Assembly (NCBI GenBank): GCA_031292525.1
Contig: JARLGY010000019.1
Span: 1 to 64,000, forward strand
Direction of reading: 5' to 3'
DNA length: 64,000 bases
Source: Flavipsychrobacter sp.
GTDB lineage: Bacteria > Bacteroidota > Bacteroidia > Chitinophagales > Chitinophagaceae
Position numbers and translations under genes: made by a program. The number at the start of each line of letters is the position of its first letter. Position 1 is the first letter of the stretch. The notes under the pieces were generated by a model, which was given only the letters and a program-made list of their open reading frames with translations, did not search any database and was not told where the DNA came from. Positions 6,034-57,905 of the stretch are shown here, one piece after another.

Positions 6034-6984
6034 ATGCATTCTTCAGTAAAGATTTTTTCAGGTACGGGTTCCTTATACCTCGCAGAAAATATTGCGCGTT
6101 CTTTTGGCAAGGGCCTAGGTAAAATAGACATCCAGAAGTTTAGCGATGGCGAGTTTCAGCCATCCTTCCAGGAGTCTATTCGTGGCGACTATGTTTTCCT
6201 GGTGCAGTCCACATTTTCTCCGGCCGACAACCTGTTGGAGCTTTTAATGATGATAGATGCAGCCCGCAGGGCATCGGCAGGCTATATAACAGCGGTAATA
6301 CCCTACTTTGGCTATGCACGCCAGGACAGGAAAGATAAGCCCCGTGTAAGTATAGCCAGTAAACTGGTAGCTAACCTGCTTACCAAGGCCGGCGCAGACA
6401 GGGTGATGACCATGGACCTGCACGCACCGCAGATACAGGGCTTCTTTGATATACCGGTGGATCACCTGGACGCATCTGCAATTTTCATCCCATACATAGA
6501 AAAACTTAAGATTGAAAACCTTATCTTTGCGTCCCCTGACGTAGGAAGTACCAACAGGGTGCGCGAGGTAGCTAAATATTTCGAGGTGGACATGGTGATC
6601 TGCGACAAGCAGCGCAAACGTGCCAACGAAATAGCAGCCATGACAGTAATAGGTGATGTAAGCGGCAGGAACGTGGTGTTGATAGACGACATATGCGATA
6701 CGGCCGGTACACTAAGCAAAAGCGCCGCCATACTTATGGAGCGCGGAGCACTAAGTGTAAGAGCATTTTGCACGCACCCGGTACTAAGCGGCAAGGCTTA
6801 CGACAATATTGAAAACTCGGTATTGGAAGAGCTGGTGGTTTGCGATACTATACCACTGCGGAAGAAAATAGATAAAATAAAGGTGCTGCCAACAGCCGAG
6901 CTTTTTGCAGTGGCTATACGCAACACTTTTGAAAATAAATCCATCAGTTCTTTGTTTGTACACGGCAGCACACGTAACAACTAA
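6034..6984 (+). CDS. prs: Ribose-phosphate pyrophosphokinase
   Basis: Makes PRPP from ribose 5-phosphate and ATP, feeding purine, pyrimidine, histidine, tryptophan and NAD synthesis in the cytosol. The 316-aa length is normal for class I enzymes. Family motifs are present: FSDGE near residue 36, YFGYARQDRK at 91-100, the catalytic-region His in MDLHAPQIQGFF (~127-138), and the PRPP-binding loop VVLIDDICDTAGT (~214-226). It is followed 165 bases later by rplY on the same strand, and the pair may be co-transcribed. A -7 box lies just upstream. Confidence 0.97.
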   Translation: MHSSVKIFSGTGSLYLAENIARSFGKGLGKIDIQKFSDGEFQPSFQESIRGDYVFLVQSTFSPADNLLELLMMIDAARRASAGYITAVIPYFGYARQDRKDKPRVSIASKLVANLLTKAGADRVMTMDLHAPQIQGFFDIPVDHLDASAIFIPYIEKLKIENLIFASPDVGSTNRVREVAKYFEVDMVICDKQRKRANEIAAMTVIGDVSGRNVVLIDDICDTAGTLSKSAAILMERGALSVRAFCTHPVLSGKAYDNIENSVLEELVVCDTIPLRKKIDKIKVLPTAELFAVAIRNTFENKSISSLFVHGSTRNN

Positions 6985-7086
6985 GCTGCACCACGGCAAA
7001 TGCTGATGCAATAAGAAAGAGATTAACGACTGTTTATACAACAAAACCTGTCCGGTATTAAAACCGCACAAACATTTTTAAAAACG

Positions 7087-7130
7087 TTTCAACGTCCGGA
7101 CGTTCGACGGGTATCCGATCGGTGTTGAAA
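7087..7130 (+). promoter_or_regulatory. Potential structured leader of rplY
   Basis: TTTCAAC (7087-7093) can pair with GTTGAAA (7124-7130). Inside lie a perfect 14-bp palindrome AACGTCCGGACGTT (7091-7104), whose pairing overlaps the outer stem, and a small CGG-GTAT-CCG hairpin. It ends 19 bases before the rplY start. Autoregulation is a common theme for ribosomal proteins, but nothing here proves that this structure is used. Confidence 0.3.
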
Positions 7131-7149
7131 GGAAAAACAAAACACTACA

Positions 7150-7752
7150 ATGAAAAGTGTAAAAATTGAAGGAACACTCAGGAGCGACTACGGCAAGAAA
7201 GCAACCCGTCAGCTGCGCACTGAAGGCCTTGTACCAGCCGTTATATACGGTGGTGATGAAGTGGTGCATTTTACTGCACCCGTTCTGGCATTCCGTACCC
7301 TGGTTTACACACCAGAGTTTCAGAAAGCAGAAATTACTGTAGGTGGCAAAACTTACGAAACAATTGTAAAAGACTTGCAGTTTGACGTAGTTACAGATGC
7401 CCTGAACCACATTGACTTCCTGGAGCTGAGCGACGACCGCAAGGTGTTGGCTACCCTGCCCCTGAAGTTTGTAGGTTCATCAGTAGGTGTTAAAGCAGGT
7501 GGACGTTTGGAGATCAAACTGAAATCGCTGAAAGTACGCACAATGGCAAAACACCTTATTTCTGCTATTGAGGTGAACATAGACAACCTGGAACTGCACG
7601 GTAACATACGTGTACAGGATGTAGTTGCAGAAAACATGGAGATCATGAATGCTCCACGTATCCCTGTAGCATCAGTTGTTACTACCCGTGCCCTGCGCCA
7701 GGCTGAAACAGATGCAATTGCTGCTGCTAAAGCTCCTGCTAAAAAGAAATAG
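7150..7752 (+). CDS. rplY: 50S ribosomal protein L25 / general stress protein Ctc
   Basis: Binds 5S rRNA in the large subunit. At 200 aa this is the long two-domain Ctc/TL5 form: an N-terminal L25 5S-binding domain (about 1-95, with GKKATRQLR and PAVIYGG near the start) and a C-terminal beta domain, ending in an Ala/Lys-rich tail. Gene order prs-rplY-pth is common in bacteria and supports the call. A strong terminator follows immediately, so pth probably has its own promoter or depends on read-through. Confidence 0.95.
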   Translation: MKSVKIEGTLRSDYGKKATRQLRTEGLVPAVIYGGDEVVHFTAPVLAFRTLVYTPEFQKAEITVGGKTYETIVKDLQFDVVTDALNHIDFLELSDDRKVLATLPLKFVGSSVGVKAGGRLEIKLKSLKVRTMAKHLISAIEVNIDNLELHGNIRVQDVVAENMEIMNAPRIPVASVVTTRALRQAETDAIAAAKAPAKKK

Positions 7753-7773
7753 TCTTTTTGAAAATTATATTGA

Positions 7774-7802
7774 AAAGCCCCTTGCAGCATGCAAGGGGCT
7801 TT
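7774..7802 (+). terminator. Rho-independent terminator of rplY
   Basis: A 13-bp perfect stem, AAAGCCCCTTGCA (7774-7786) with TGCAAGGGGCTTT (7790-7802), closes on a 3-nt loop and is followed by a T-rich stretch. Confidence 0.93.
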
Positions 7803-7854
7803 GTATTTTTACCTTCTTTAAAAGTTGAATATAAATAATATTTTATTATAATAC

Positions 7855-8415
7855 ATGAAGTATCTTATAGTAGGCTTAGGTAACCTGGGTATGGAATACG
7901 ATAGCACCCGCCACAACATAGGTTTTGACGTAGCCGATGCCCTAGTCATAAAAAACGATGGTAAGTTCACCCTGGATCGTCATGCCTACAAAGCCGAAGT
8001 AAAATGGAAGGGCAAAACCTTTGTGGTTATAAAACCCACCACCTACATGAACCTTAGCGGCAAAGCTGTACGCTACTGGCTGGATAAAGAGAAGATACCC
8101 ATAGAGAACATGCTGGTGATAGTTGACGACCTGGCCCTGCCACTTGATGCCCTTCGGATACGCGCCGGCGGCAGTGATGCGGGCCACAACGGCCTCAAGA
8201 ATATACACCTGATGCTGAACACAGACCAATACCCCAGGCTACGCTTTGGCATTGGCAACCAATACCCAAAGGGCCAGCAAATAGACTTCGTCCTCGGTCA
8301 TTGGACACCCAGCGAGATGCCTGTGGTAAAGGAGAAACTACTGAAGTGCATAGAAATAATAGAATGCTTTGCCGCACAGGGAATAGTAAAAACAATGAAC
8401 CTATATAACAAGTAA
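7855..8415 (+). CDS. pth: Peptidyl-tRNA hydrolase
   Basis: Cleaves peptidyl-tRNA released from stalled ribosomes so tRNAs can be reused. The 186-aa protein has the bacterial Pth motifs: GLGNLGMEYDSTRHNIGF at 7-24 with Asn10 and the catalytic His20, PTTYMNLSGK at 61-70 with Asn66, VDDLALPL at 90-97 with the conserved Asp91, and GGSDAGHNGL at 105-114 with Asn112. All key residues are present. The leader is very AT-rich. It sits downstream of the rplY terminator on the same strand. Confidence 0.96.
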   Translation: MKYLIVGLGNLGMEYDSTRHNIGFDVADALVIKNDGKFTLDRHAYKAEVKWKGKTFVVIKPTTYMNLSGKAVRYWLDKEKIPIENMLVIVDDLALPLDALRIRAGGSDAGHNGLKNIHLMLNTDQYPRLRFGIGNQYPKGQQIDFVLGHWTPSEMPVVKEKLLKCIEIIECFAAQGIVKTMNLYNK

Positions 8416-8529
8416 AACACCAAACACAGCTACTTTTTTAAGTACAGATACCCAATAGTATAATTTCTTGCATAGTTTATAAAAACAACATTAAATTTAT
8501 ATTACCAGTTGTTGATTAATAAATTATAA

Positions 8530-10593
8530 ATGAAGAGAAAAATACTATTTACCCTTGTGTGCGTGCTCGCTATAATGAGTGCCAATGCCCAGTCTTATGT
8601 GGCGGCTCCCCATAAAATCATATCTGGCACTAGCCAGGATGTTTACGATACGCTGAATGTAACGAGCCTTAGTCCTGCCACACTAAATGGCAGCCACGGC
8701 CTAGATAGTGTGACGCTGAACCTTACCTACAGCTACGATGAGGACCTGGAAATAAGCCTCATAGCGCCTGATGGCACCATAGTGCAACTCGCTGATAAAC
8801 TAGGTGGCAGCGACAGTAACTATATACATACCTGCTTTTGCATGAGCACAAGCAGTCTGATAGATGATGCCTCCGCCCCCTTCAGCGGGCAGTTGCAGCC
8901 AGAGGACTGGCTGGGGCGAGTAAATAATGGCCACAGTGGCGTGGGCAAATGGGTTTTACACATCATCAACGCCAACATATCTACCAACACGGGGGTGCTG
9001 CTGAACTGGGGGTTATACTTTGACGCTCACCCTGCACCTGTGAGCTTATTAACAACATCTACTTTACCACTTGTAGTGATCAATACCACAAACAATGCTG
9101 TAATACCCTACGATGAAGATGTGAAAGTAATTGGCCAAATGGGCATTATTTACAATGGCGCAGGCCAGGTAAACCACATAACCGATCCTTATAACAATTA
9201 TAACGGTTATATATCCATTAAAGTGAGGGGGAACAGTACGAGATACTTTGCACAAAAAGCATTTTCAGTAGAAACAGAAAATGCTAATGGCAGCAATAAT
9301 AACGTTTCGCTACTGGGTATGCCTATGGATAATGACTGGGTATTGTACGCGCCTTATGACGATAAATCGATGATCAGGAATGTGATCACTTATCAAATGT
9401 CTAACGTGATGGGCGATTATGCCCCACGTACCCGCATGGTAGAACTGGTTTTGAATGGTGACTACCGTGGGGTATATGTATTGATGGAAAAAATAAAACA
9501 GGGTGCAAACAGGGTAAATGTAACTAAGATGAAAGCAACCGATACTGCTGGAAATAGTGTGACAGGTGGCTATATATTTGAAGTGGATAGGAGTGGTACG
9601 GTAGGATATGATTCATGGCAATCGAACTACTTATCGTGCTTAACAGCAGGTTCTAATATCTATTTTGCTTATGCAGTGCCCAAAAGCTCTGATATTGTTA
9701 CACAGCAGCAACAATACATTGCCAATTATGTAAACCAATTTGAAACAGCCCTGAAAGATACAAGCGTTTACGATACAGTAAATGGTTATCGCAAGTATAT
9801 AGATGTGCTATCCTTCATAGATCAATCGCTGCTGCAGGAAATTGGACATAATGTGGATGGGTACAGGTTGAGCAGCTATCTGCACAAAGATAGGGGCGGA
9901 AGGCTTGCTGGTGGACCAATATGGGATTTTAATGAAGCCTACGGAAATGCAGACTATAATGGTGGGAGCGACTACAATACTTTTGAATGGGACCTACCCT
10001 GCTCCCTACCAGATGGTAATCTAAATCCTTTCTGGTGGCAGAAGTTCCTAACCGATACCAACTATGTAAACGAATTAAAATGTCGCTACACACAGCTAAG
10101 ATCAGGTGCATACGATACTGTGAAGATGAACCACATGATAGATTCACTGGTGGGAATATTGCAAGTGCCGCAGCAAAGGCATTTTGCCAGGTGGCCGCTA
10201 TTAGGAAATTACGTATGGCCCAATAGCTACGTGGGCAATACATGGCCAGACGAAATAAACTATCTAAAAGGCTGGCTTGCAAATAGGGTAAAATCAATGG
10301 ATAGTGCCTTAATCAATAAAGCCTGCAAGGTAAAAACCGAAATAAATAATATCACTTCGCCTTCTGAGATAACTATGTATCCCAATCCGGTGGCTGATGA
10401 GTTGCATATAACGTCGGGCACCGAAATAAATGGCTTGGCGATATATAACATGGTGGGACAGGCGGTTTATACTAGCAATATTAAAAGCGTTGCATTTACC
10501 ATTTCGTTAAAACAATACAATTCCGGAGTATATACAATAATTATCTACACAACCGACGGAATAAGCACGCGGAAAATAGTACACGTTGAATGA
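8530..10593 (+). CDS. Secreted CotH-kinase-like protein with P-domain and type A T9SS signal
   Basis: 687 aa. A signal peptide spans residues 1-20 (cleaved after SANA). Residues ~38-165 resemble a proprotein-convertase P-domain (beta-jellyroll with LTYSYDEDLEISLIAPDG). Residues ~205-600 match the CotH family: a KVRGNSTRYFAQK segment, NGDYRGVYVLMEKIK, and a RLAGGPIWDFNEAYGN segment with the family's WDF. The last ~75 residues (EITMYPNPVADELHI to the end) form a type A T9SS sorting domain. CotH proteins are atypical protein kinases in Bacillus spore coats; here the substrate is unknown and activity is inference. No operon partner is close on the left; an esterase follows after 110 bases. Confidence 0.88.
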   Translation: MKRKILFTLVCVLAIMSANAQSYVAAPHKIISGTSQDVYDTLNVTSLSPATLNGSHGLDSVTLNLTYSYDEDLEISLIAPDGTIVQLADKLGGSDSNYIHTCFCMSTSSLIDDASAPFSGQLQPEDWLGRVNNGHSGVGKWVLHIINANISTNTGVLLNWGLYFDAHPAPVSLLTTSTLPLVVINTTNNAVIPYDEDVKVIGQMGIIYNGAGQVNHITDPYNNYNGYISIKVRGNSTRYFAQKAFSVETENANGSNNNVSLLGMPMDNDWVLYAPYDDKSMIRNVITYQMSNVMGDYAPRTRMVELVLNGDYRGVYVLMEKIKQGANRVNVTKMKATDTAGNSVTGGYIFEVDRSGTVGYDSWQSNYLSCLTAGSNIYFAYAVPKSSDIVTQQQQYIANYVNQFETALKDTSVYDTVNGYRKYIDVLSFIDQSLLQEIGHNVDGYRLSSYLHKDRGGRLAGGPIWDFNEAYGNADYNGGSDYNTFEWDLPCSLPDGNLNPFWWQKFLTDTNYVNELKCRYTQLRSGAYDTVKMNHMIDSLVGILQVPQQRHFARWPLLGNYVWPNSYVGNTWPDEINYLKGWLANRVKSMDSALINKACKVKTEINNITSPSEITMYPNPVADELHITSGTEINGLAIYNMVGQAVYTSNIKSVAFTISLKQYNSGVYTIIIYTTDGISTRKIVHVE

Positions 10594-10703
10594 TAATTGT
10601 GCCTTCAACTAGGCCATTTTACTACCGCCTTCCGCGTGATTTATATGAGCAAGAGTTGTGTAATGCCAGATAACAAGTATTTTGCCTCATTAACCTCATC
10701 TAC

Positions 10704-11519
10704 ATGAAGCCTATACTTACGCTTTTGGTGTGCCTCTTACTATCCGCGAATCCTTTACAAGCCCAGATAAAGGCTTACCAGACACCCTTTATATTAGGGC
10801 ATACTGACACTATATCATCTGCAATATTAGGAGAAAGAAGAGCACTTAATATTTACTTGCCGGACGGATACGTTAAAGACAGCAGTTACCCTGTTATTTA
10901 TTTACTAGATGGGTCTGCAAATGAAGACTTTGTGCATGTGGTAGGCATTGTGCAGTTCCTTACCATGATAGAAGCCATGCCCAAATCGATAATAGTAGGC
11001 ATAGCTAATGTAGACCGGCGGAGGGATTTCACCTTTCCTTCTACAGTTGAAAAGGATCGAAAACTGGTTCCAACAGGTGGAGGCTCTTCTAAGTTCATAT
11101 CCTTTATGGAGCAAGAGTTGCAGCCCTATATTCAACATACTTACAGCGCCAGTATTAACACAACTATTATAGGGCAATCTTTAGGTGGTTTAGTTGCTAC
11201 AGAAATGCTGATTGAAAGACCATCACTATTCAGTACTTACCTTATTGTAAGCCCAAGTCTGTGGTGGGATAACGAATCTCTTTTGGCAAAAGCAAAGAGC
11301 CTATCGATACAACCGGATAAAAACATACGGGTATATATTGCTGTTGGTAACGAAGGAAAACAAATGGAAGAGGATGCAAAGAAACTGCACACCACACTTA
11401 AAGCAACAGGCAATGAACAAATACGATCATCTTTTACCTTTATGCCTGACGAAAACCACCTAACCATATTACACAACTGCGTTTATAAAGCGTTGACAGA
11501 ATTAAACAGTAAAAAATGA
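10704..11519 (+). CDS. Exported alpha/beta-hydrolase (putative esterase, Fes/IroE-like family)
   Basis: 271 aa with a signal peptide (~1-20, ending LQA). The fold is alpha/beta hydrolase of the putative-esterase family: the nucleophile elbow GQSLGG places Ser at ~159, VSPSLWWDN follows about 25 residues later, and a late His in DENHLTILH (~252) would complete the triad. Relatives hydrolyse siderophores, acetyl esters or acyl groups; substrate cannot be told from sequence. It stands alone between the CotH-like gene and a membrane protein, all on the same strand. Confidence 0.82.
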   Translation: MKPILTLLVCLLLSANPLQAQIKAYQTPFILGHTDTISSAILGERRALNIYLPDGYVKDSSYPVIYLLDGSANEDFVHVVGIVQFLTMIEAMPKSIIVGIANVDRRRDFTFPSTVEKDRKLVPTGGGSSKFISFMEQELQPYIQHTYSASINTTIIGQSLGGLVATEMLIERPSLFSTYLIVSPSLWWDNESLLAKAKSLSIQPDKNIRVYIAVGNEGKQMEEDAKKLHTTLKATGNEQIRSSFTFMPDENHLTILHNCVYKALTELNSKK

Positions 11520-11588
11520 CATTTATATAGTTGCAGTAGGTCAGTTTCAATATCTCGTGTTACATTTATCGTTAAACATTGTGCGAAC

Positions 11589-12899
11589 ATGAAGCTGGTC
11601 CATAAACTCCCTATTTTTATCGTATTGCTGCTCATGCTATTATTTGCAAACCTGCGTGCAAACAAACGCGATGGAGGTCATGGGTACTGCTTAAATATTT
11701 GTGGCGATGCGCGTGGTTACTATGCCTGGTTACCAGCTATATTTATCTACCACGATCTTAATTTTCATTTCTTTGAGTCGGTAGAAAAAAAAGATTCCAC
11801 CTGTGGTGTCAATGTACAAGCCAATATACAGGACTATAGACATACATTCGACGGCATAGATTGCGATAAATATTACCCAGGGGCTTCTTTCCTAATGCTG
11901 CCTTTTTTTGCAATAGCACACTTTGCTACTCTCCACACTACAGCATATCCGCCCAATGCCTATACTTTACTTTATTTTAAAATAATGCCTTTTTGCTGCG
12001 ACTTTTATTTCCTGCTGGGCATGCTATTCTTCCTGATGATACTGGACAAATTGAAGTGCACTACACTACAAAAATGCCTTACTATTATCTTCCTCATCTT
12101 TGGCTCCAACATTGTATTTTATATTGTGGATGCGCCACTATATTCCCACGTGTATTCCTTTGCGCTCATCTCTGCTTTCTTATACTATGCCTTTTGTCTT
12201 AAGGAAAACTATAAAGTCCGATACATTATACTTATATGCTTTCTTGCAGGCTGGATAATGATAACAAGGCCAGTAAATATTTGCATAGTACTGATGCTGC
12301 CATTTATACTCGGCCGCAGGTTGCCTGCCATTTGGCAAGAAACAACGCAAAGACCTATACGTTTATTAGCAGTGCTTTCCGGGTTGATAATGCCGGCTAT
12401 ATTACTTGTGATATATAAGATATCAACAGGGCATTACTTCATCTATTCGTACGGACCAGAGGGTTTTAATTTCAAACACCCTCATTTGTTACATTATTTG
12501 TTCAGTTACGATAATGGAGTACTACCCTATACTCCGCTCTTCTTTGCTCCAGTGCTTATATTATTTGCATGGTATCGACAAGAATATAAAAACATGGTAG
12601 CTGGTATACTGCTCACACTTGCAGCTATGGTGTATGTAAATAGTTCGTGGTGGTGCTGGTGGTACGGCACATCATTTGGCGCACGCAGCATTCTCGACTT
12701 TTTACCTTTGTTCGGCATCCTTATTGCCTTATCGCTGCAGGTAAAAACTCGTAACTACTTGTATATACTGCCTGTTTACCTGCTTTGTTGTGGCCTTACC
12801 ATGCTGCTGTATCACGAAAACAGTGCTTGTCACTACATGGGACTATACCCAGTTACCGACTATTGGAAGGCAATAAATGATGGTTTAGGTCTAAAATAG
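11589..12899 (+). CDS. Multi-pass membrane protein, possibly a GT-C-type glycosyltransferase
   Basis: 436 aa with an N-terminal hydrophobic segment, a soluble loop of ~100 residues, and about eight further hydrophobic helices. The first loop contains CGDARGYYAWLPA and KYYPGASFLMLPFF, a pattern seen in large-loop GT-C-like membrane proteins of Bacteroidota; the acidic Asp in GDARGY could be functional. I do not recognise a named family with certainty. It might transfer a sugar from a lipid carrier, but no neighbouring sugar-pathway gene supports that. It faces the EGF-like gene convergently. Confidence 0.6.
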   Translation: MKLVHKLPIFIVLLLMLLFANLRANKRDGGHGYCLNICGDARGYYAWLPAIFIYHDLNFHFFESVEKKDSTCGVNVQANIQDYRHTFDGIDCDKYYPGASFLMLPFFAIAHFATLHTTAYPPNAYTLLYFKIMPFCCDFYFLLGMLFFLMILDKLKCTTLQKCLTIIFLIFGSNIVFYIVDAPLYSHVYSFALISAFLYYAFCLKENYKVRYIILICFLAGWIMITRPVNICIVLMLPFILGRRLPAIWQETTQRPIRLLAVLSGLIMPAILLVIYKISTGHYFIYSYGPEGFNFKHPHLLHYLFSYDNGVLPYTPLFFAPVLILFAWYRQEYKNMVAGILLTLAAMVYVNSSWWCWWYGTSFGARSILDFLPLFGILIALSLQVKTRNYLYILPVYLLCCGLTMLLYHENSACHYMGLYPVTDYWKAINDGLGLK

Positions 12900-49586: not shown

Positions 49587-49617
49587 TTTGGTCACAATAT
49601 TGTAATACCTATCTTTG
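49587..49617 (+). promoter_or_regulatory. Promoter of the TonB-like/TPR/barrel cluster
   Basis: TTTG (49587-49590), 19 bases, then TATCTTTG (49610-49617): a full match to the Bacteroidota housekeeping-promoter consensus. The ATG of the first gene follows after about 62 bases. Confidence 0.8.
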
Positions 49618-49679
49618 TTGCGCTTTATATTAGCAGGCTGTATGCCTGAAAAACTAACCATCTTAAAATATATTATAAC

Positions 49680-52010
49680 ATGCAGAAGTGCATAAGCCTG
49701 TTGGCATCACTCCTTTTTTTAACATCCATAACAGCTTTTGCACAATCTAAAAACGGTACCGTTAAAGGGTTCGTTTACGATAAAGTAACTGGTGAACCTT
49801 TAATATATACCAATGTATTGTTTCCCGGCACACGGTATGGCGCCCAAACCGACCTTAACGGGTATTTCTCTATTTCGCTACCAGCTGGCAGCTATACACT
49901 CATCACTACCCAAGTAGGGTACGATACGGCAACATCTACAATAAACCTGTTGCCTGACGCACTAGTTACCAAAAAATTATTCATCTCTAACCAGGGATTA
50001 CAACTGAAAGGTGTAGAAATTTCTGGCAGAAAGACCGAAAAGCAAACCCATATAAATGTGGGTGTGACCACTATAACACCAAAGGATATTAAATTGCTAC
50101 CCAGTTCTGGTGGCGAACCCGATGTAGCCCAGTTTTTACAAGTGGTGCCAGGCGTCGTTTTCACCGGCGACCAAGGTGGTCAGTTGTACATCCGTGGTGG
50201 CTCACCTGCGCAAACAGGTATCTTGCTGGATGGTGTTACCATCTTCAACCCGTTTCACTCCATAGGTCTATTTTCTGTTTTCGAAACAGATGCCATACGT
50301 AACGTAGATGTTTATACTGCAGGATTCAATGCTGAATATGGCGACCGTACATCGGCCATAGTAGATGTACACACTAAGGATGGTAACAAGAATGATATTG
50401 CTGGCCTGGTATCTGTATCCCCAATTATGACGAGAGCCTTGCTGGAAGGCCCGCTTGTTAAGTCAAAAAAGAAAAACGGTTCAGGTGTAACATTCCTGGT
50501 ATCTGCTAAAAAAAGTTACCTTGATGAAACTTCAAAATCAGTATACGGCGGTTTAGGCGAACCATTTAGTAATGGGCTACCATACAGCTTTACTGATGTG
50601 TATGGCAAAGTAACCTTAAGTGCCGATAATGGTAGCAAGTTGAACCTTTTCGGCTTCAGCTTTAATGATGATGCTAAATTGCTAGACCCGCAAACACATG
50701 TACCTGCAGCTGATTTCAACTGGAAGGCTTCTGGTGGTGGTGGTACCTTTGTAGTGTCGCCCGGTAGCTCCTCAGCGCTTATTGATGGTAAGTTTGCCTA
50801 TTCAAGATACAATATCAACTTCAACAACTACGCATTAACTACCCCGAGTACCAGCGAAATAGACAATTTTGAAGCCGGTTTGAATTTCACATACTATCTT
50901 CCTCACTATAGCGAATTAAAATATGGCCTGGAAGTAAGCGGTTACCACACCAGCCTTAGTTATAATGAGTTGCAGAACATCAGCACCACTTTAGAACAGC
51001 AAAGCACTCTTGCGGGTTTGTATGTGGTGTTCCGTAAAAATTTCAGTGAAAAATTCATCATTGAGCCTAGCATACGTTTCCAATATTATTCAGAACTATC
51101 GCAGATATCTCCTGAACCGCGCTTGGGGCTCAAGTATAATATCAATGATAACCTTCGCCTGAAATTTGCAACGGGCCTTTACTCTCAAAACATTGTTAGT
51201 ACCAAAAACGATGTTGATATAGTAAACTTCTTTACCGGTTTTTCATTGAGTCCGCAACAAACAGTAAATGGTACAAATGGGCAACCGGTTTCATCGCCGC
51301 TACAAACTGCTTACCATGTAAGCGGTGGTATAGAATATGACCTGAACAGGGTGGAACTGAACCTGGAACCATGGGTGAAAGACTTTACCAGGCTCATCGA
51401 AATAAACAGGTACAAGATTTATTCTACTGATCCTGACTTTGCTGCAGGTACCGGCCTTGCAACAGGTTTAGACCTTTCTGCAAAATATAGTTACGACAGG
51501 ATCTATCTATGGGCCGCTGCAGGGTTGCAGAATGTAAACTATACCAACATTGGTTCAGACGGGAAGGTGCAAACCTATCCAGCACCTTTTGACAGGCGTT
51601 TTAACCTGAATATTGTTGGCGCTTACACCGCTGGCAAAAAGAAGGATTGGGATCTTTCTGCACGTTTCAACCTTGGTTCACCTTTCCCATTCACCCTTAC
51701 CCAGGGTTTTTATGAAGCCTTGACGCCGGGAGCAGGTAACAATGTGAACTCAAATGTCAATCAGCAAAATGGTACACTTACCGCGCTCTATGCAAATGCT
51801 ATAAACGGAGGTAGGTTATCATGGTACCATCGCCTTGATGTGTCAGCAAAAAAACGCTTTGCACTCAGTAAGAAATCAAGCATTGACCTTACCTTTAGTT
51901 TAACTAATGTTTACGATCGTCAGAACATTTTTTATGTGGACAGGTACTCCAATATCAGTATCTTTCAACTACCAATATTTCCAAGTGTTAACCTGACCTG
52001 GAATTTCTAA
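49680..52010 (+). CDS. TonB-dependent receptor-like protein (first gene of envelope cluster)
   Basis: 776 aa, signal peptide ~1-22 (ending AFA). A carboxypeptidase-like domain (~25-110: GTVKGFVYDKVTGEPLIYTN, AQTDLNGYFSISLP) is followed by a plug (EPDVAQFLQVVPGVVFTGDQ, then LYIRGGSPAQTGILLDGV and VDVYTAGFNAEYGDRTSAIV) and an outer-membrane barrel ending in NLTWNF. No classical TonB box is obvious. First gene of a cluster with a TPR protein six bases downstream, a second barrel and an HU/SPOR-like protein. The tight spacing implies joint function rather than simple nutrient uptake. Confidence 0.9.
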   Translation: MQKCISLLASLLFLTSITAFAQSKNGTVKGFVYDKVTGEPLIYTNVLFPGTRYGAQTDLNGYFSISLPAGSYTLITTQVGYDTATSTINLLPDALVTKKLFISNQGLQLKGVEISGRKTEKQTHINVGVTTITPKDIKLLPSSGGEPDVAQFLQVVPGVVFTGDQGGQLYIRGGSPAQTGILLDGVTIFNPFHSIGLFSVFETDAIRNVDVYTAGFNAEYGDRTSAIVDVHTKDGNKNDIAGLVSVSPIMTRALLEGPLVKSKKKNGSGVTFLVSAKKSYLDETSKSVYGGLGEPFSNGLPYSFTDVYGKVTLSADNGSKLNLFGFSFNDDAKLLDPQTHVPAADFNWKASGGGGTFVVSPGSSSALIDGKFAYSRYNINFNNYALTTPSTSEIDNFEAGLNFTYYLPHYSELKYGLEVSGYHTSLSYNELQNISTTLEQQSTLAGLYVVFRKNFSEKFIIEPSIRFQYYSELSQISPEPRLGLKYNINDNLRLKFATGLYSQNIVSTKNDVDIVNFFTGFSLSPQQTVNGTNGQPVSSPLQTAYHVSGGIEYDLNRVELNLEPWVKDFTRLIEINRYKIYSTDPDFAAGTGLATGLDLSAKYSYDRIYLWAAAGLQNVNYTNIGSDGKVQTYPAPFDRRFNLNIVGAYTAGKKKDWDLSARFNLGSPFPFTLTQGFYEALTPGAGNNVNSNVNQQNGTLTALYANAINGGRLSWYHRLDVSAKKRFALSKKSSIDLTFSLTNVYDRQNIFYVDRYSNISIFQLPIFPSVNLTWNF

Positions 52011-52016
52011 AAAGTT

Positions 52017-55000
52017 ATGGCTTTAAAGGATTCGAAATGTTTTCTAACCTTACTACTAGCATCGTTCACATACTGCGGATATGCGCAGGTACATGCACCT
52101 GAAATTGTGCCCGACAGGTGGCTATCGATTGCAGACCAACAGTTTGCAGCTGAAAACTATACGCTTGCTATACAATCAGCTTGTCACTACTTGGATGCTG
52201 TTACCAGCCTTACTGATGCAAAAACGGGCAACGAGCGTACCAAAGCCAAATATTACATTGCTGTTTCACGGTTAAAGACCAACCAGGAAACAGGTTTAGA
52301 CGACGCCCGCCAACTGATAGCTGCTACACCAGTTGCAGCTTATAAACAACGTACATCGTATGCATTGGCACAATATTATTTCAGGCGCAATAAGTATATG
52401 GCTGCTATACCATATTACGAAGCTGCAGGGATAGCCAACCTGAGCAATGAGGAAATAGCCAACGAAAAGTTTGAGCTTGCATATTGTTACTTCAATAACC
52501 GCCAGCTAGATAAAGCAGAACCGCTATTTGCATCTATAAAAGAATTGCAACAGGGTAAATATTACGCCGCTGGAAATTATTATTATGGTCTGCTGGCATA
52601 TAACGCTAACAACTATACAGACGCATTAAGCAGTTTTGAACGTATAAAAGACCTGCCTCAATATAGTAACATAGTACCTTACTACATTGCCGAGATTTAC
52701 TATTTCACTGGCAAAAGGGAAAAGGCACTTGAAGAAGCAGAAACCCTTGTAAAAAGATCTGAAAAGCTTTATTACGATAACGAACTACACCTGCTGGCAG
52801 CACAATGCCTCTTTGAAGAACAACACTTTAAAGAGGCGCTACCCTATTTTGAGTTTTACTTTGATAACGTAGATAAAATAAGAAAAGAAGACCTCTACGA
52901 AATGGCCTATTGCTACTATCGTGTAAATAACTGGACACAAGCCATAGACAAATTCAAATTGCTGAGCAGCACACAAGATAGCCTGGGGCAAACTGCAATG
53001 TACTTGCTGGGCGATGCTTACTTGCAAACAGGCGATAAAACAAGTGCAAGGAATGCATTTAGTTTTTGCGGTGATATGCCTTTCAATACAGGACTGCAAG
53101 AGACTGCTATTTTGCTTTATGCCAAGCTTTCTTACGAAATGGGGTATAATGAAGATGCCACACTTGCATTAAAGAACCTACTGGAACATTTCAAAAAAAC
53201 AAAGTATAAGGATGAGGCTCGGACATTGTTATCCGACCTGCTGGTGAAGACCAATAATTACTATGAAGCTTATTTATACCTCACAGAAGTAAATGACAAG
53301 AACGCTGAATACTGGCGGGTGTATCAGAAAGTAGTATATGGCTATGCCCTGCAACAGGCCGAACTTGGCGATATGCGTGAAGCAGATAAACTGCTTGCAA
53401 GCACGTTGCAACATCCTGAAGACATCAGTTATGAGGCTGCTACCCTCTTCTGGAGAGGAGAGCTAGCCTACCGACAGAACAATTATGAAAACACCATCCG
53501 CTTTTCGCAAGAGTTTCTAAACAAAACTGAAAAGAACGCCAATATAAAAAGGATAAGCGCTGTAGCTACCCGGCCACATGCTTTGCTCAATATGGGCTAT
53601 GCGGCTATGGAAGAAAGTAAATTCAGCGATGCCCGTAAATACTTTAATGAAGCACAATTAAATACGGGGGCTGATACCACAGATAAACAGGAAGCTTTGC
53701 TGCATGAGGCAGATGCTGTCTTTATGACCAAAGACTACCCGCATGCAATCAGCCTTTACGATAGGATAATTGCGGCCAATGGCAGCGATGCAGATTACGC
53801 AAGATATCAGAAAAGTATATTGCTCGGTTTACAGAAACAGCCGGCAGCTAAGATAGCCCTATTACAATTGTTGATGAACAAGGGAGAGTTATCGCCCATG
53901 GCTAATCAGGCACGTTACGAGCTGGCCTCAACCTACATAGAAGGAAACAGGTATAAAGATGCTATTGCCATATTGCAACCATTAACAGGTGTAAAAAATG
54001 CAAGTAATCTTGCTCCTAAAGCTCTCCTAAAAACAGGCTTTGCTTACCAACAGTTGAATGATCTTCCTAATGCTATCAGTGCTTATAAGAACATTGTTAC
54101 TAGTTTTCCTGCCTCAGAAGAACGGCCTTCTGCAATGGATGCACTGAAAAACTTATATATAGAAAATGACGAGCCTGCGGCATATGCCCAGTTCCTAAAA
54201 GAGAACAACCTTTCATCTACTGACAACAACACCCTGGATTCAGCCTATTATAAGGCTGCAGAAGTTCAGTTTGCATCGGGCAATTGGGATAAGGCTCGCG
54301 AATCGATGACCAAATACATCAACCAGTTCCCTAATGGTACATTTATTACAAAGGCGCATTATTACCGTGCCGAAAGTAACTACCTGCTGAAAGACGGCAA
54401 AGATGCACTTGCAGACTACAATGCAATACTGAAAGGCCAGACAAATGAATTTACCGAAAACAGTGCAAAAAGGGCAGCAAGTATTGCATACCAGGCTAAA
54501 GATTATAAAGCAGCTGAAGACTACTATCGCGCATTCAGGAATACGACAGGCACCAATACTAACCTACAGCTGGCATACAGCGGTCTCATGAAATCCAGTT
54601 TTTACCTGGGTACAATGGACTCTTCATCAGCATATGCAGACTCACTTATTGCTAAGCCTCAAACTGATTCTACATTGAGGGCTGAAGCTTTGCTATACAA
54701 AGGCAAGATCTTATCGCAATCAAAAAATACCGAAGCTGCCCAATCTTACTTCCAGCAAGTTCAAGACAATTCAAATTCTACCATAGCTGCAGAAGCGCGG
54801 TACAATATTGCTGAGTACTATTACAACCAGGATAATTTGAAAGATGCGGAGAAGATGGCTAATTCCACAATACGCGCATCATCTGGCAACGACTACTGGA
54901 CGGTTAAGGCTTACCTTTTATTGTCAGATATATTGGTAAAAGAAAAAGACTATTTTAATGCCAAAGCCACCCTGCAAAGTATAGTAAAGAATACGGGAAT

Positions 55001-55085
55001 AGCAGAATTGAAGCAAGAAGCTACTAAGAAACTGGACCAGGTAAAGAAACTAGAGAAAAAACAAAGTAAACTATCTGAAGAATGA
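52017..55085 (+). CDS. Large tetratricopeptide-repeat protein, probably periplasmic
   Basis: 1022 aa, with a signal-like N-terminus (residues ~8-24, LTLLLASFTYCGYA). The body is filled with TPR-like helix pairs; many contain the A..YY or Y..A.A pattern, for example YKQRTSYALAQYYFRRNKYM, KFELAYCYFNNRQLDKAEPL and ARYNIAEYYYNQDNLKDAEK. The C-terminus is Lys-rich. TPR arrays bind proteins and often scaffold envelope machines. The start is six bases after the upstream barrel gene and the stop overlaps the next gene (ATGA), so all three are translationally linked. SprE/PorW is another large TPR protein in this phylum, but nothing shows it is that. Confidence 0.88.
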   Translation: MALKDSKCFLTLLLASFTYCGYAQVHAPEIVPDRWLSIADQQFAAENYTLAIQSACHYLDAVTSLTDAKTGNERTKAKYYIAVSRLKTNQETGLDDARQLIAATPVAAYKQRTSYALAQYYFRRNKYMAAIPYYEAAGIANLSNEEIANEKFELAYCYFNNRQLDKAEPLFASIKELQQGKYYAAGNYYYGLLAYNANNYTDALSSFERIKDLPQYSNIVPYYIAEIYYFTGKREKALEEAETLVKRSEKLYYDNELHLLAAQCLFEEQHFKEALPYFEFYFDNVDKIRKEDLYEMAYCYYRVNNWTQAIDKFKLLSSTQDSLGQTAMYLLGDAYLQTGDKTSARNAFSFCGDMPFNTGLQETAILLYAKLSYEMGYNEDATLALKNLLEHFKKTKYKDEARTLLSDLLVKTNNYYEAYLYLTEVNDKNAEYWRVYQKVVYGYALQQAELGDMREADKLLASTLQHPEDISYEAATLFWRGELAYRQNNYENTIRFSQEFLNKTEKNANIKRISAVATRPHALLNMGYAAMEESKFSDARKYFNEAQLNTGADTTDKQEALLHEADAVFMTKDYPHAISLYDRIIAANGSDADYARYQKSILLGLQKQPAAKIALLQLLMNKGELSPMANQARYELASTYIEGNRYKDAIAILQPLTGVKNASNLAPKALLKTGFAYQQLNDLPNAISAYKNIVTSFPASEERPSAMDALKNLYIENDEPAAYAQFLKENNLSSTDNNTLDSAYYKAAEVQFASGNWDKARESMTKYINQFPNGTFITKAHYYRAESNYLLKDGKDALADYNAILKGQTNEFTENSAKRAASIAYQAKDYKAAEDYYRAFRNTTGTNTNLQLAYSGLMKSSFYLGTMDSSSAYADSLIAKPQTDSTLRAEALLYKGKILSQSKNTEAAQSYFQQVQDNSNSTIAAEARYNIAEYYYNQDNLKDAEKMANSTIRASSGNDYWTVKAYLLLSDILVKEKDYFNAKATLQSIVKNTGIAELKQEATKKLDQVKKLEKKQSKLSEE

Positions 55086-55096
55086 TTTGCGGGAGT

Positions 55097-56743
55097 ATGA
55101 AAAAGTTATTCTTATTGACAACCGTTTGTGTTGCTGCATCTGCACATGGTATGGCGCAAACAGCCGCACCTGCAAAAGACACATCAATAAAAGGGGCAAC
55201 TATTGAGGTAATACAATCTTACAAGCCTGAAGTAAAACAACGGCCCAAGCAGGAATATACGCCTTCTCTCCCCCCTATTGATAATACACACCCGGTATTT
55301 AACTACATCGTACCTCAACAAACACTTAACTATTCTTACAATTCCTTACCGTTACGCCCCTTGGCACTGGGCCGGGATACTACCCTTCCACCATATCCTA
55401 ATTACGTAAAACTGGGTGGGGGTAATTTATCTACCCTATTCCTGGATGCAGGTATTGGCAGTCTGAAGGGTAAAGACTACGAAACCGTTTTTCATCTGCA
55501 TTCCATAACGCAACAGGGCAACATTCAAAATCAAAAATCTTCACTTACCGATTTTGAGGCAGACGGAACATTGCATAAAGCAAGTGGCCAATGGCATGGT
55601 TTCGCAGATGCCACGCGCAATCAGTACAGCTACTTTGGTTATAATCACGACCTGTACCAACCTACGGCAGACAGTATAAAACAAACGTTTACCGGTGTAA
55701 AAGTGGGTGCCGATATGCAAAAAGAAAACGCAGCAAATAGCAGGTTCAATTACCATCCTGCAATAGCCGCCTCTATTTATGCAGATAAATTCAGCACAAC
55801 TGAAACCTCTTTCACATTAAATGCTCCTTTTTACTACCAAATAGATAGTTCGCTCGACCTGCAGTTTGCGGCAAATGGAATTTTCACGCAGTATAAAAAC
55901 GCGCAGCAGAGTTTCAGTAACAATATTATTCAGTTCGATCCGGGTATTAACTATCATACAGGTTCGTTTACCGCCCATGCTTACCTTTCACCTGCTATAG
56001 GCAGCAATGCAAACTACCTCTTGCCCAACCTGGGGGCAACCTACAGCATACCCAAAACATTATTTACCATCAATGCAGGATGGATGGCGAGCGTAAGGCA
56101 AAACACTTACGAACAACTGACTACCGAGAATCCTTACATTTTCAACTCTTTTGTAGCGCCACAATATACATACTCACCCTTGCAAACGCGCAGCGATGAA
56201 ATATATGGCGGCATACAAACCAACCTGGGTAATCACTTATCTTTAAGTGGCAGAATAAGCTGGTGGCAGTACGACCATTTGCCTGTATTTATAAACAATA
56301 TAGGCGATCAAAAGCAGTTTAGTGTTATCTACGATAATGATCTTAACGCTACATCATTACAGGCAGCGCTTACCTACAAAGTTGCCAACAAGTTCTCTGC
56401 CGATGTGCAAGGCATTTTCTATACTTACTTCAACGGATCGCAGGCGAAAGCATGGCAGGAACCCGGCATACGCCTTAGAGGGTCGTTGCTCTATCGCCCT
56501 ATTGCTGCACTCAGCTTTACAGCCTATGCAAATGTGCTGGACCAAATATATGCTTTGCAAAATACCACAATAGTAAAGCTTGACCCCACCCTCGACATAG
56601 GAGGTAGCGTCGAGTACCAATTGATACCCCGATTATCTGTTTTCCTGCAGGTTAACAACCTACTGAACAACAAAAACGAACGCTGGCTTGGCTATCAGTC
56701 TTACGGTACTAATATATACGGCGGGCTGAGATTTAAATTTTAG
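55097..56743 (+). CDS. Outer-membrane beta-barrel protein, TonB-receptor-like without plug
   Basis: 548 aa from the ATG at 55097 (MKKLFLLTTVCVAASAHGMA, signal peptide). An earlier in-frame ATG at 55082 overlaps the TPR stop as ATGA and may be the true start, adding five residues. A Pro/Lys-rich stretch (YKPEVKQRPKQEYTPSLPPI) and then alternating barrel strands to a terminal RFKF make up the rest. The strands and closing ...NIYGGLRFKF are typical of TonB-receptor barrels; no plug is present. It is third in the cluster, between the TPR protein and the HU/SPOR-like protein. Confidence 0.82.
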   Translation: MKKLFLLTTVCVAASAHGMAQTAAPAKDTSIKGATIEVIQSYKPEVKQRPKQEYTPSLPPIDNTHPVFNYIVPQQTLNYSYNSLPLRPLALGRDTTLPPYPNYVKLGGGNLSTLFLDAGIGSLKGKDYETVFHLHSITQQGNIQNQKSSLTDFEADGTLHKASGQWHGFADATRNQYSYFGYNHDLYQPTADSIKQTFTGVKVGADMQKENAANSRFNYHPAIAASIYADKFSTTETSFTLNAPFYYQIDSSLDLQFAANGIFTQYKNAQQSFSNNIIQFDPGINYHTGSFTAHAYLSPAIGSNANYLLPNLGATYSIPKTLFTINAGWMASVRQNTYEQLTTENPYIFNSFVAPQYTYSPLQTRSDEIYGGIQTNLGNHLSLSGRISWWQYDHLPVFINNIGDQKQFSVIYDNDLNATSLQAALTYKVANKFSADVQGIFYTYFNGSQAKAWQEPGIRLRGSLLYRPIAALSFTAYANVLDQIYALQNTTIVKLDPTLDIGGSVEYQLIPRLSVFLQVNNLLNNKNERWLGYQSYGTNIYGGLRFKF

Positions 56744-56801
56744 ATCGGCTATGGTCACATTGAAACGATATGCTTACCTTCACTACAATTTTTGATTAGA
56801 A

Positions 56802-57743
56802 ATGGACATAGCTAAATATATAGGACTTTTTTTACTAAAAAATCACTTTTGCTACATACATGGCTTGGGCAATCTGGAGCTCAAAAAACGCTCGGCTACG
56901 CAGGATGGAGATACATTGCGCGGCCCTTCTTACGAGGTTGTAGTAACACAGGGTGGCTCAATAGATGATAACCTTGCCAACTTTATAGCTACTAACGAAT
57001 TTATCAGCATATCTAAAGCATCCAATGCATTGCGCGATTTCAGCACCGATGCGCGGGCTCAATTGCTGGAAGGTAAAGATGTTGTTATATCCAATATTGG
57101 GAAGTTCCAGGAGGTTAATGGAAGAATAACATTCACTACAGATCCTAACCTGCAATACACCCCATATTCGGTACCGTCTATGCGTACAGACCGCAGACCG
57201 GATGAAGCTGCTGCTGCACGGCCTTATACCCCGCCATTGCCGTCTATGCAGACCAATGCTGAAAAACCGACACAATCTGCAACCCCACCGCCACCTCCAC
57301 CAGCCCGTGCAACGGCAACTGTTGATTGGAAAAAAGTGATCGTAGCTGTGGTAGCATTAATAGTGCTTATTGTACTAGCATTAGTAGCTTTCAAATTCAT
57401 ACAGAACAGGAACAATAAAGCAGAATCAGATCTGCATCCTCATGTGCTGGTGCCCCCGCCGGTTATGGTTCAACCCAAAGTGGATAGTGCGGCTTTGATA
57501 AAGAATGCAGATACAACGCGTACCTACAATTTTATCATTGGTGACGAAGAAACACGCAAAAAAGCAGAGAAGAAGGTAGCACTCATGGTCTCTTACGGCC
57601 ACCAGGGTGTACAGATGGTAGCACAGGATTCTTCTATGTACCTGATAGTAATGCCTGTAAAATGTGCACCAAGCGACACGTTGAGGGTTATGGATTCCCT
57701 CGGCAGATTTTATGGTTATCCAGGTGTTAGTATTTATCAATAA
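56802..57743 (+). CDS. HU-CCDC81-like/SPOR-like membrane protein
   Basis: 313 aa. Residues ~1-120 fit the HU-related CCDC81-bac fold (MDIAKYIGLFLLKNHFCYIH, LGNLELKKR, GKDVVISNIGKFQEVNGRIT), then a Pro-rich linker (~130-170), one membrane helix (~179-200) and a C-terminal beta-alpha domain (~236-313) that resembles SPOR (VALMVSYGHQGVQMVA...). SPOR domains bind denuded peptidoglycan; the N-domain would be cytosolic. The gene lies 58 bases after the barrel gene on the same strand and ends in a strong terminator. Whether the HU part binds DNA is unknown. Confidence 0.78.
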   Translation: MDIAKYIGLFLLKNHFCYIHGLGNLELKKRSATQDGDTLRGPSYEVVVTQGGSIDDNLANFIATNEFISISKASNALRDFSTDARAQLLEGKDVVISNIGKFQEVNGRITFTTDPNLQYTPYSVPSMRTDRRPDEAAAARPYTPPLPSMQTNAEKPTQSATPPPPPPARATATVDWKKVIVAVVALIVLIVLALVAFKFIQNRNNKAESDLHPHVLVPPPVMVQPKVDSAALIKNADTTRTYNFIIGDEETRKKAEKKVALMVSYGHQGVQMVAQDSSMYLIVMPVKCAPSDTLRVMDSLGRFYGYPGVSIYQ

Positions 57744-57776
57744 AGCAATATATTAAACAGAATTTATTTTTTCTAT

Positions 57777-57796
57777 AAAAGGGCTTCTGCCCTTTT
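57777..57796 (+). terminator. Terminator of the HU/SPOR gene and cluster
   Basis: AAAAGGGC (57777-57784) pairs with GCCCTTTT (57789-57796) around a TTCT loop; ATTTTTTGC follows. Confidence 0.88.
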
Positions 57797-57905
57797 ATTT
57801 TTTGCGAGATATAGACATATATATATAGGCCGCAATCCTCCCTCCTAAAGAGTATCCCATATCCCAGAAAATGTATTACAGTAAAAGAGAAAAGAAAATC
57901 AGAAC

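Follow-up and report, generated by a model that had tools for sequence, protein, structure and literature searches.

The locus and its four genes

Here we describe a group of linked envelope genes in Bacteroidota, starting from four genes in a 64,000-nucleotide stretch of the Flavipsychrobacter sp. contig JARLGY010000019.1 (the window). In order, the genes encode a putative TonB-dependent receptor, a giant tetratricopeptide repeat (TPR) protein, a predicted outer-membrane barrel without a plug, and a predicted inner-membrane protein with HU-like domains, a transmembrane (TM) helix and a SPOR-like domain. Below, G, L and f label genomes, loci and families; G000 is the window's genome, f1 its family, and "the class" its class.

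49587 to 49617, plus strand: promoter-like element TTTG-N19-TATCTTTG of the Bacteroidota type, read in the sequence
49680 to 52010, plus strand: gene 1, TonB-dependent receptor, 776 amino acids, CarboxypepD-regulatory and plug domains (Pfam); lineage-specific partner
52017 to 55085, plus strand: gene 2, TPR protein, 1022 amino acids, TPRs by Pfam and NCBIfam; core part
55082 to 56743, plus strand: gene 3, predicted plugless outer-membrane barrel, 553 amino acids, BtuB-like fold (AlphaFold2 model and Foldseek); core part
55100 to 56743, plus strand: alternative start of the barrel gene, with a cleaner signal peptide by eye; the barrel profile match begins at 55097
56802 to 57743, plus strand: gene 4, predicted HU-HU-TM-SPOR inner-membrane protein, 313 amino acids (AlphaFold2 model)
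57775 to 57798, plus strand: intrinsic-terminator-like hairpin, 10 pairs, then a T-run

Six bases separate genes 1 and 2, genes 2 and 3 overlap by the four bases ATGA, and 58 bases lie between genes 3 and 4; this arrangement, given in an earlier note made from the letters of this DNA, proved exact on re-reading. A barrel start at 55100 would abolish the overlap with the TPR gene. The closing terminator of the same note is present as the 10-pair hairpin and T-run listed above, although terminator-like sites number 7 in the whole scan of the window against 8.8 expected. The promoter that it called consensus, a pattern which we take to be the Bacteroidota promoter consensus, is there as a motif but is no commoner than chance, the general pattern matching three times in the window against 2.5 times expected from shuffles. 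The element is well placed rather than statistically special, being supported by its placement and not by its rarity, and since the pattern occurs at chance frequency in shuffles, the match was rejected as evidence of co-transcription. A sigma-70-type site falls inside the 58-base gap (56760 to 56789), so gene 4 may have a transcription start of its own.

Gene 1 has a plug domain well recognised by Pfam (49.3 bits, cut-off 23.9), while its barrel part has no Pfam match. The product of gene 2 is built of TPRs and, by a signal peptide read by eye, would be periplasmic. It scores 129.7 bits against TIGR02795 (cut-off 90.1), but that score is summed across six TPR stretches; the CpoB trimerisation domain, for which PF16331 is named in PMC12204202 (of which, as of the other papers cited by accession here, part was available), was not matched in gene 2 in the Pfam scan. 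Identity with PorW/SprE of the type IX secretion system was rejected, NF052312 giving 46.6 bits against a cut-off of 250. Two irregular TPR genes were seen elsewhere: in one genome (G270, L205) the gene is interrupted, by either a frameshift or an assembly error, and gives open frames of 599 and 472 amino acids, and G002 carries, at C1:1170301-1172598, a second match to the TPR family with two internal TAA codons, its intact gene lying elsewhere in the genome.

For gene 3, neither Pfam nor NCBIfam gives a family match at E<=0.1. Its AlphaFold2 model, built from 26 sequences, has a mean predicted local distance difference test (pLDDT) score of 80.9 and forms a barrel from residue 102 to 547, the strands of which were not counted exactly; residues 20 to 97 lie mostly below pLDDT 50, so that the N-terminal tail is probably disordered. 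Foldseek placed E. coli BtuB first (E 6e-16), and all 50 matches listed are TonB-dependent transporters by name. Independently of the model, the sequence profile reaches the end of the PfeA receptor barrel (E 5e-7). A plug domain was found neither by Pfam nor as a structured domain ahead of the barrel start at residue 102 of the model. From the BtuB fold match and the PfeA profile match we therefore identify gene 3, at the level of a predicted fold, as a TonB-dependent-transporter-type (BtuB-like) barrel without a plug, and the structure prediction that the earlier note had proposed thus bears out its plugless barrel. Marked conservation of the tail was considered and rejected, the mean majority share at residues 34 to 54 being 0.397 against 0.368 in the barrel.

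Gene 4 falls just below the cut-off of HU-CCDC81_bac_2 (33.2 bits, cut-off 35), and Pfam SPOR (PF05036) is not matched in the protein itself. Its AlphaFold2 model (32 sequences) has HU-like domains at residues 1 to 49 and 57 to 113, a long helix at 176 to 204 and a SPOR-like domain at 240 to 313, most of each domain standing at pLDDT of about 90 or more. Foldseek matches to E. coli HU and to the SPOR domains of CwlC, DedD and RlpA are weak (E 0.02 to 0.06) and of partial coverage. Ranked first for this model is a doublet-microtubule chain from sea urchin sperm (8snb, E 1.7e-3); should the chain prove to be CCDC81, the match would suit the HU-CCDC81 name. Among relatives, the protein of L078 has both of its HU-CCDC81_bac domains over the Pfam cut-off, and SPOR passes it in L078, L096, L099, L157, L163, L104 and L093, L117 being just under. 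The third-gene proteins of L157, L163 and L099 combine a SPOR domain over the cut-off with no HU match; those of L086 and L133 read as linker-TM-SPOR. Because several lineages thus have TM-SPOR without HU, the constant third part of the set is TM-SPOR and the HU domains are optional. The HU-SPOR layout of the earlier note is recovered in the window as a modelled HU-HU-TM-SPOR protein, but across relatives only its TM and SPOR parts are constant. Three members (L071-L073), with 191 to 209 amino acids, consist by reading of HU and a TM helix, which leaves no room for SPOR.

HU carries long DNA-embracing arms between its last strands. In the model the second HU domain of gene 4 has a two-residue turn at that place, so DNA wrapping by these domains looks unlikely, and a link of the machine to the chromosome through HU is doubtful because the arms appear absent from the model. 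A role of HU as chromosome tether was rejected on this turn and on the lack of HU in several lineages. A second HU-TM-SPOR-like protein is encoded in G007 (L069:147-1058), on the opposite strand and about 4 kilobases (kb) from the TPR gene.

Linkage across the phylum and the motor genes

Searches covered 247 genomes of the phylum, 61 of them from the class. The TPR family has a match in all 61 class genomes, and the barrel in 58 with the window protein as query and in 61 with a profile. Although the two were located by separate searches, they are same-strand neighbours in 60 of the 61 (gaps up to 1138 bases; the exception is G053), a linkage far beyond chance, and the neighbourhood check that had been suggested for this cluster thus comes out in its favour. 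In several families the pair continues into genes for a SPOR protein, an ExbB/TolQ-type protein, an ExbD/TolR-type protein and a TonB-like protein, and in four families of the class FolC closes this extended operon.

To count these associations, 121 stretches were scored and 12 dropped: L107, which by reading is a full TonB-dependent transporter with a plug; L208, whose barrel is cut at the contig end; and L111, L146, L148, L162, L165-L167, L198, L201 and L216, with no barrel in the stretch. Among the 109 barrel loci that remain, a TPR gene stands within 1.5 kb in 103 and a SPOR gene within 1 kb in 67, with ExbB at 41, ExbD at 40 and TonB at 40. The 32 loci outside the class have TPR in 27, SPOR in 30, ExbB in 27, ExbD in 26 and TonB in 25; for the 53 class loci without f1 the numbers are 52, 15, 14, 14 and 15. 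One family outside the class, f23, has a barrel-SPOR-ExbB-ExbD-TonB operon without TPR at all five of its loci, and for four of the five (G054, G065, G139, G151) a TPR-family gene is found elsewhere in the genome. A scan of genome records added 80 loci, nearly all from Sphingobacteriaceae (Pedobacter, Mucilaginibacter, Sphingobacterium and relatives), of which 11 with under 6.5 kb downstream were set aside. The order TPR-barrel-HU/SPOR-ExbB-ExbD-TonB-FolC is complete at 59 of the 69 scorable loci (at least 6.5 kb downstream), the others having the first six genes (6 loci), the first five (1), the first two (2) or TPR alone (1). Beyond the named genes no constant neighbour was seen, unlabelled neighbours being compared by size and some by Pfam.

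The receptor behaves differently from the rest. Gene 1 stands directly before the TPR gene at 13 of the 24 barrel loci of f1 and at none of the 85 others; except for G000's own stretch, the f1 loci were picked by a match to the window's HU/SPOR protein, which makes the 13 of 24 an uneven family sample, and the 24 include L202, where the contig begins inside the TPR gene and gene 1 is not visible. A second genome of the genus (G304) has the identical four-gene order and an HU/SPOR protein 92% identical to the window's. Because gene 1 is missing from 96 of the 109 barrel loci, it joined the set and not the reverse; it is an addition of the window's family and no core part, which corrects its place in the joint machine first proposed. 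At L216 (G323, 6175-12685) receptor, TPR and HU/SPOR genes occur with no barrel gene between the last two, which are 65 bases apart; the barrel there has been either lost or relocated.

The motor genes are recognised at L078, where ExbB and ExbD pass the Pfam cut-offs, and TonB_C is over its cut-off in L096, L104 and L157, the TonB-like proteins of L078 and L086 having no Pfam match. Where the genes stand apart, a cluster-type ExbB is still present: it was found at E<=6e-42 in 38 of 38 genomes, namely 37 class genomes whose SPOR gene is split from the TPR-barrel pair and G000. At 29 dispersed ExbB loci (L333-L361), ExbD adjoins in all 29 and TonB in 26, with reversed orientation in 7 of these, and FolC lies within a short flank in 15. 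In a tree of 81 ExbB sequences, the 29 linked copies, the 29 dispersed ones and two from f1 (C52, G250) separate from 21 other Ton-type sequences with a branch support of 82, and all class copies, the window genome's included, fall in one starred clade with a support of 100. The deep split is moderate evidence only, since the tree was built by a quick method and contains several long branches.

In the window's genome the motor ExbB lies on a separate contig (C52:17572-18243) and is 50% identical to the Sphingobacteriaceae-type copy; downstream follow ExbD and, by reading, a RecG-like gene. In G250 (L203) the same ExbB-ExbD locus is found close to the receptor-TPR-barrel-SPOR genes, on the other strand. 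The best equivalogs of the two G000 proteins are tolQ for ExbB (83.1 of 221 bits) and tolR for ExbD (49.4 of 127.3 bits), and G000 has in addition a general Ton-type ExbB-ExbD-ExbD locus at C34 (L197). The full unit is therefore larger than four genes, and the ExbB-ExbD-TonB motor is the part missing from the window's cluster; the extent given in the earlier note is right in that its genes are jointly linked, and too small in that the unit usually comes with this motor. Two variants of the dispersed motor operon were seen: L341 and L346-L348 (f2) have two consecutive ExbD-type genes instead of one, and at L335, L349, L350, L354-L356 and L360 (f5) ExbB-ExbD is flanked by an oppositely oriented TonB-like gene at one end and by FolC at the other.

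TolB and the barrel in the sampled genomes

With the TolB of G010 as query, full-length matches at E<1e-150 were obtained in 53 of the 54 genomes of f17 and in none of the other 193 (a split counted by hand from result tables); among those 193, the TolB matches listed are propeller fragments, the best at 5e-34, and G000 has no match of any kind. The barrel profile at E<=1e-40 matches 173 of the 193 and none of the 54. The best barrel-profile match within f17 is 5e-25, and the matches there are taken as cross-hits to ordinary transporters. TolB and the barrel exclude each other in the sampled genomes. Family f17 consists of green sulfur bacteria, because the FMO protein is found in 10 of 10 of its genomes tested; it was also found in the one f28 genome tested (G125) and in none of seven others. 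By Pfam, TolB_N (PF04052) matches 6 of 118 genomes, 4 of them in f17, and is absent from G000. This distribution agrees with the available part of PMC12204202 (2025), which states that Chlorobiota have tol-pal, that Bacteroidetes lack identifiable tol-pal loci, and that the database used there contains no Pal in Bacteroidetes.

A proposed force-transducing machine

The linkage of the six parts, together with the predicted plugless fold of the barrel and the modelled HU-TM-SPOR layout, suggests to us a Tol/Ton-like force-transducing envelope machine, of which the TPR protein, the barrel and the HU/SPOR protein would be the periplasmic, outer-membrane and inner-membrane anchor parts (probability about 0.45). 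The set is widespread in Bacteroidota and is usually encoded with, or accompanied by, its own ExbB-ExbD-TonB motor. In the mechanism that we propose, ExbB and ExbD would power the TonB-like transducer from the proton gradient, and the transducer would take hold of the barrel's long N-terminal tail; as the barrel contains no plug that could be moved aside, the force would be exerted on the outer membrane itself. Meanwhile the SPOR domain would keep the machine's inner-membrane end at septal peptidoglycan processed by amidases, and a superhelix of TPRs would connect the barrel with the cell wall. The outer membrane would thereby be drawn inward or tethered, as it is by Tol-Pal in Proteobacteria. 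In the window's lineage ExbB-ExbD would act from elsewhere in the genome, with the plugged receptor as a further outer-membrane handle or regulator, and in part of the phylum the cytoplasmic HU-CCDC81-type domains could serve to attach the machine either to the nucleoid or to itself. Perhaps, then, this is the missing counterpart of Tol-Pal, its motor pulling a plugless barrel across a giant TPR bridge while the SPOR protein places it at the division septum; this narrower idea is tentative, and we would give a division-specific Tol-Pal role about a third of the weight.

The conserved linkage of TPR, barrel, SPOR and motor genes favours the earlier note's joint trans-envelope system, unlike nutrient uptake, and its view that no function had been assigned also stands, in that no published account of the gene set was recognised in the literature searched, which was mostly open-access, so that subscription-only papers might describe part of it; the same literature yielded no paper on HU-CCDC81. 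How Bacteroidota anchor and constrict their outer membrane without an identifiable Tol-Pal is a standing question (PMC12204202, in the part available), and a conserved set with its own motor, a plugless barrel and a SPOR domain makes that question testable with named genes. If the reading is correct, a TonB-type motor acting on a plugless barrel would be a case of force transduction for something other than the gating of import.

By the tests made, the set belongs to neither Tol-Pal nor Ton, although the machine would work in a similar way: there is no TolB, scores stay below the equivalog cut-offs and there is no plug. With Tol-Pal (TolQ-TolR-TolA-TolB-Pal-CpoB) it shares MotA/TolQ-ExbB-type and ExbD/TolR-type subunits, a TonB/TolA-type transducer in relatives of the window's set, a predicted periplasmic TPR protein, a predicted capacity for peptidoglycan binding and a conserved operon. 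It differs in lacking full-length TolB (which none of the 193 genomes from other families than the green sulfur one has), in having a barrel as outer-membrane partner, in a TPR protein of about 1000 amino acids with no CpoB trimerisation domain matched, and in a peptidoglycan contact that would be made through an inner-membrane SPOR domain. The Ton system (ExbB-ExbD-TonB, BtuB) has the same motor type, the TonB C-terminal domain found in some members here, and a similar barrel; unlike it, the cluster's barrel has neither a plug nor a canonical TonB box, and the window's genome keeps its separate general Ton-type locus (L197). FtsN and DamX have a cytoplasmic N-terminus, a single TM helix, a linker and a C-terminal SPOR domain. 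Gene 4 is predicted to resemble such SPOR proteins (FtsN, DedD, DamX) in this layout and in its weak fold match to the SPOR domains of DedD and RlpA, but many Bacteroidia members carry tandem HU-CCDC81-type domains and share an operon with a motor. A PorE-based tether between outer membrane and peptidoglycan, proposed as a stand-in for Tol-Pal in the same phylum (PMC12204202), is unlike the present set in that PorE is a single CpoB-TolB-Pal-like fusion lipoprotein; the available part of that paper does not mention the present cluster.

Several points weigh against a Tol/Ton-like machine. The canonical TonB box occurs in 0 of 109 barrel tails. A relaxed motif (with a required final G) is present in 17 of them, where shuffles gave 3.2 on average and 11 at most; all 17 belong to the 32 barrels from other classes (IELPDFVITG is one example), and the 77 class barrels have none. 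A TonB box as a firm feature was rejected on these counts, and because the relaxed motif is missing from the class, a TonB grip on the window's own barrel can be argued, weakly, only by analogy with relatives. Two TonB-like proteins fall just under the NCBIfam TonB cut-off, the motor subunits do not reach the equivalog cut-offs for TolQ/TolR and ExbB/ExbD, and the ExbB-ExbD pair of G000 at C52 has no TonB gene next to it. The SPOR gene is not beside the TPR-barrel pair in 40 of the 61 class genomes; in favour of the machine, however, of the 37 of these that were searched along with G000 (G174, G222 and G245 being left out), 36 have a match to the HU/SPOR profile at E<=1e-3, and in 33 the match reaches E<=5e-15. 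As sole query the window's HU/SPOR sequence matches only 7 of 247 genomes, the gene apparently diverging fast at the sequence level, so that profiles are needed for the search. The exclusion between TolB and barrel sets one green sulfur lineage against the rest, 20 of the 193 genomes have neither by these searches (f12, f15, f28, f36, f37 and f40, with one genome each from f19 and f34), and among 14 controls TolB_N is matched in Bacteroides ihuae as well as in E. coli and Caulobacter. The reading as a whole draws on genes, linkage and predicted folds.

What else might such genes do? TPR-plus-barrel pairs are familiar from polysaccharide export (AlgK/AlgE, BcsC, PgaA), and a TonB-energised transporter or exporter, in which the barrel is the channel, the TPR protein an adaptor or gate and the motor drives the passage of protein, lipid or glycan, is unlikely. 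These pairs and the transporter-type barrel of gene 3 speak for it, as does a precedent in Myxococcus, where the TonB-dependent transporter Oar is needed for secretion of PopC (PMC6434023, in the part available). Yet the 50 fold matches listed include no AlgE/BcsC-type barrel, a wide pore with no plug would need gating to prevent leakage, a SPOR protein is unexpected in a transporter, and the neighbourhoods offer no further constant gene, unlabelled neighbours being compared mostly by size. The wide conservation and envelope-spanning layout would also suit an accessory of outer-membrane protein or lipid assembly (similar to the barrel assembly machinery, BAM, or to surface export of lipoproteins) whose motor remodels the envelope, and subunits peculiar to the lineage, one of them an additional outer-membrane protein, are described for the BAM of Bacteroidota (PMC12611786, PMC12578637). 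The available main text of those two papers mentions neither TPR, tetratricopeptide nor SPOR, the barrel profile matches no BAM chain in PDB, and the listed fold matches are TonB-dependent transporters; subunits of BAM itself were rejected on these grounds, and the accessory role is improbable.

Somewhat more improbable again is a relative of the Agl-Glt/Nfs machinery of Myxococcus, in which surface material is moved along the cell by a motor of the TolQR type together with TonB-like, TPR and outer-membrane proteins. The parts list is similar: the available part of PMC3169522 describes AglR/Q/S, GltG with a TonB motif, the TPR proteins GltC/E/I, and secreted GltH and GltA with weak outer-membrane domain matches. 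No Glt model comes near its cut-off, however, the only one to match being GltJ with 19 of 450 bits over a proline-rich linker, and Agl combines one MotA/TolQ-type with two ExbD-type subunits (PMC3169522), whereas the clusters here mostly have one ExbD and a SPOR protein instead. Ordinary nutrient uptake, with gene 1 as the receptor for a nutrient and the following genes its neighbours by history, is very improbable: gene 1 does have the N-terminal domains of a TonB-dependent receptor, but by reading no SusD-like gene was recognised beside it, and the 96 barrel loci without gene 1 indicate that the receptor came to an existing set.

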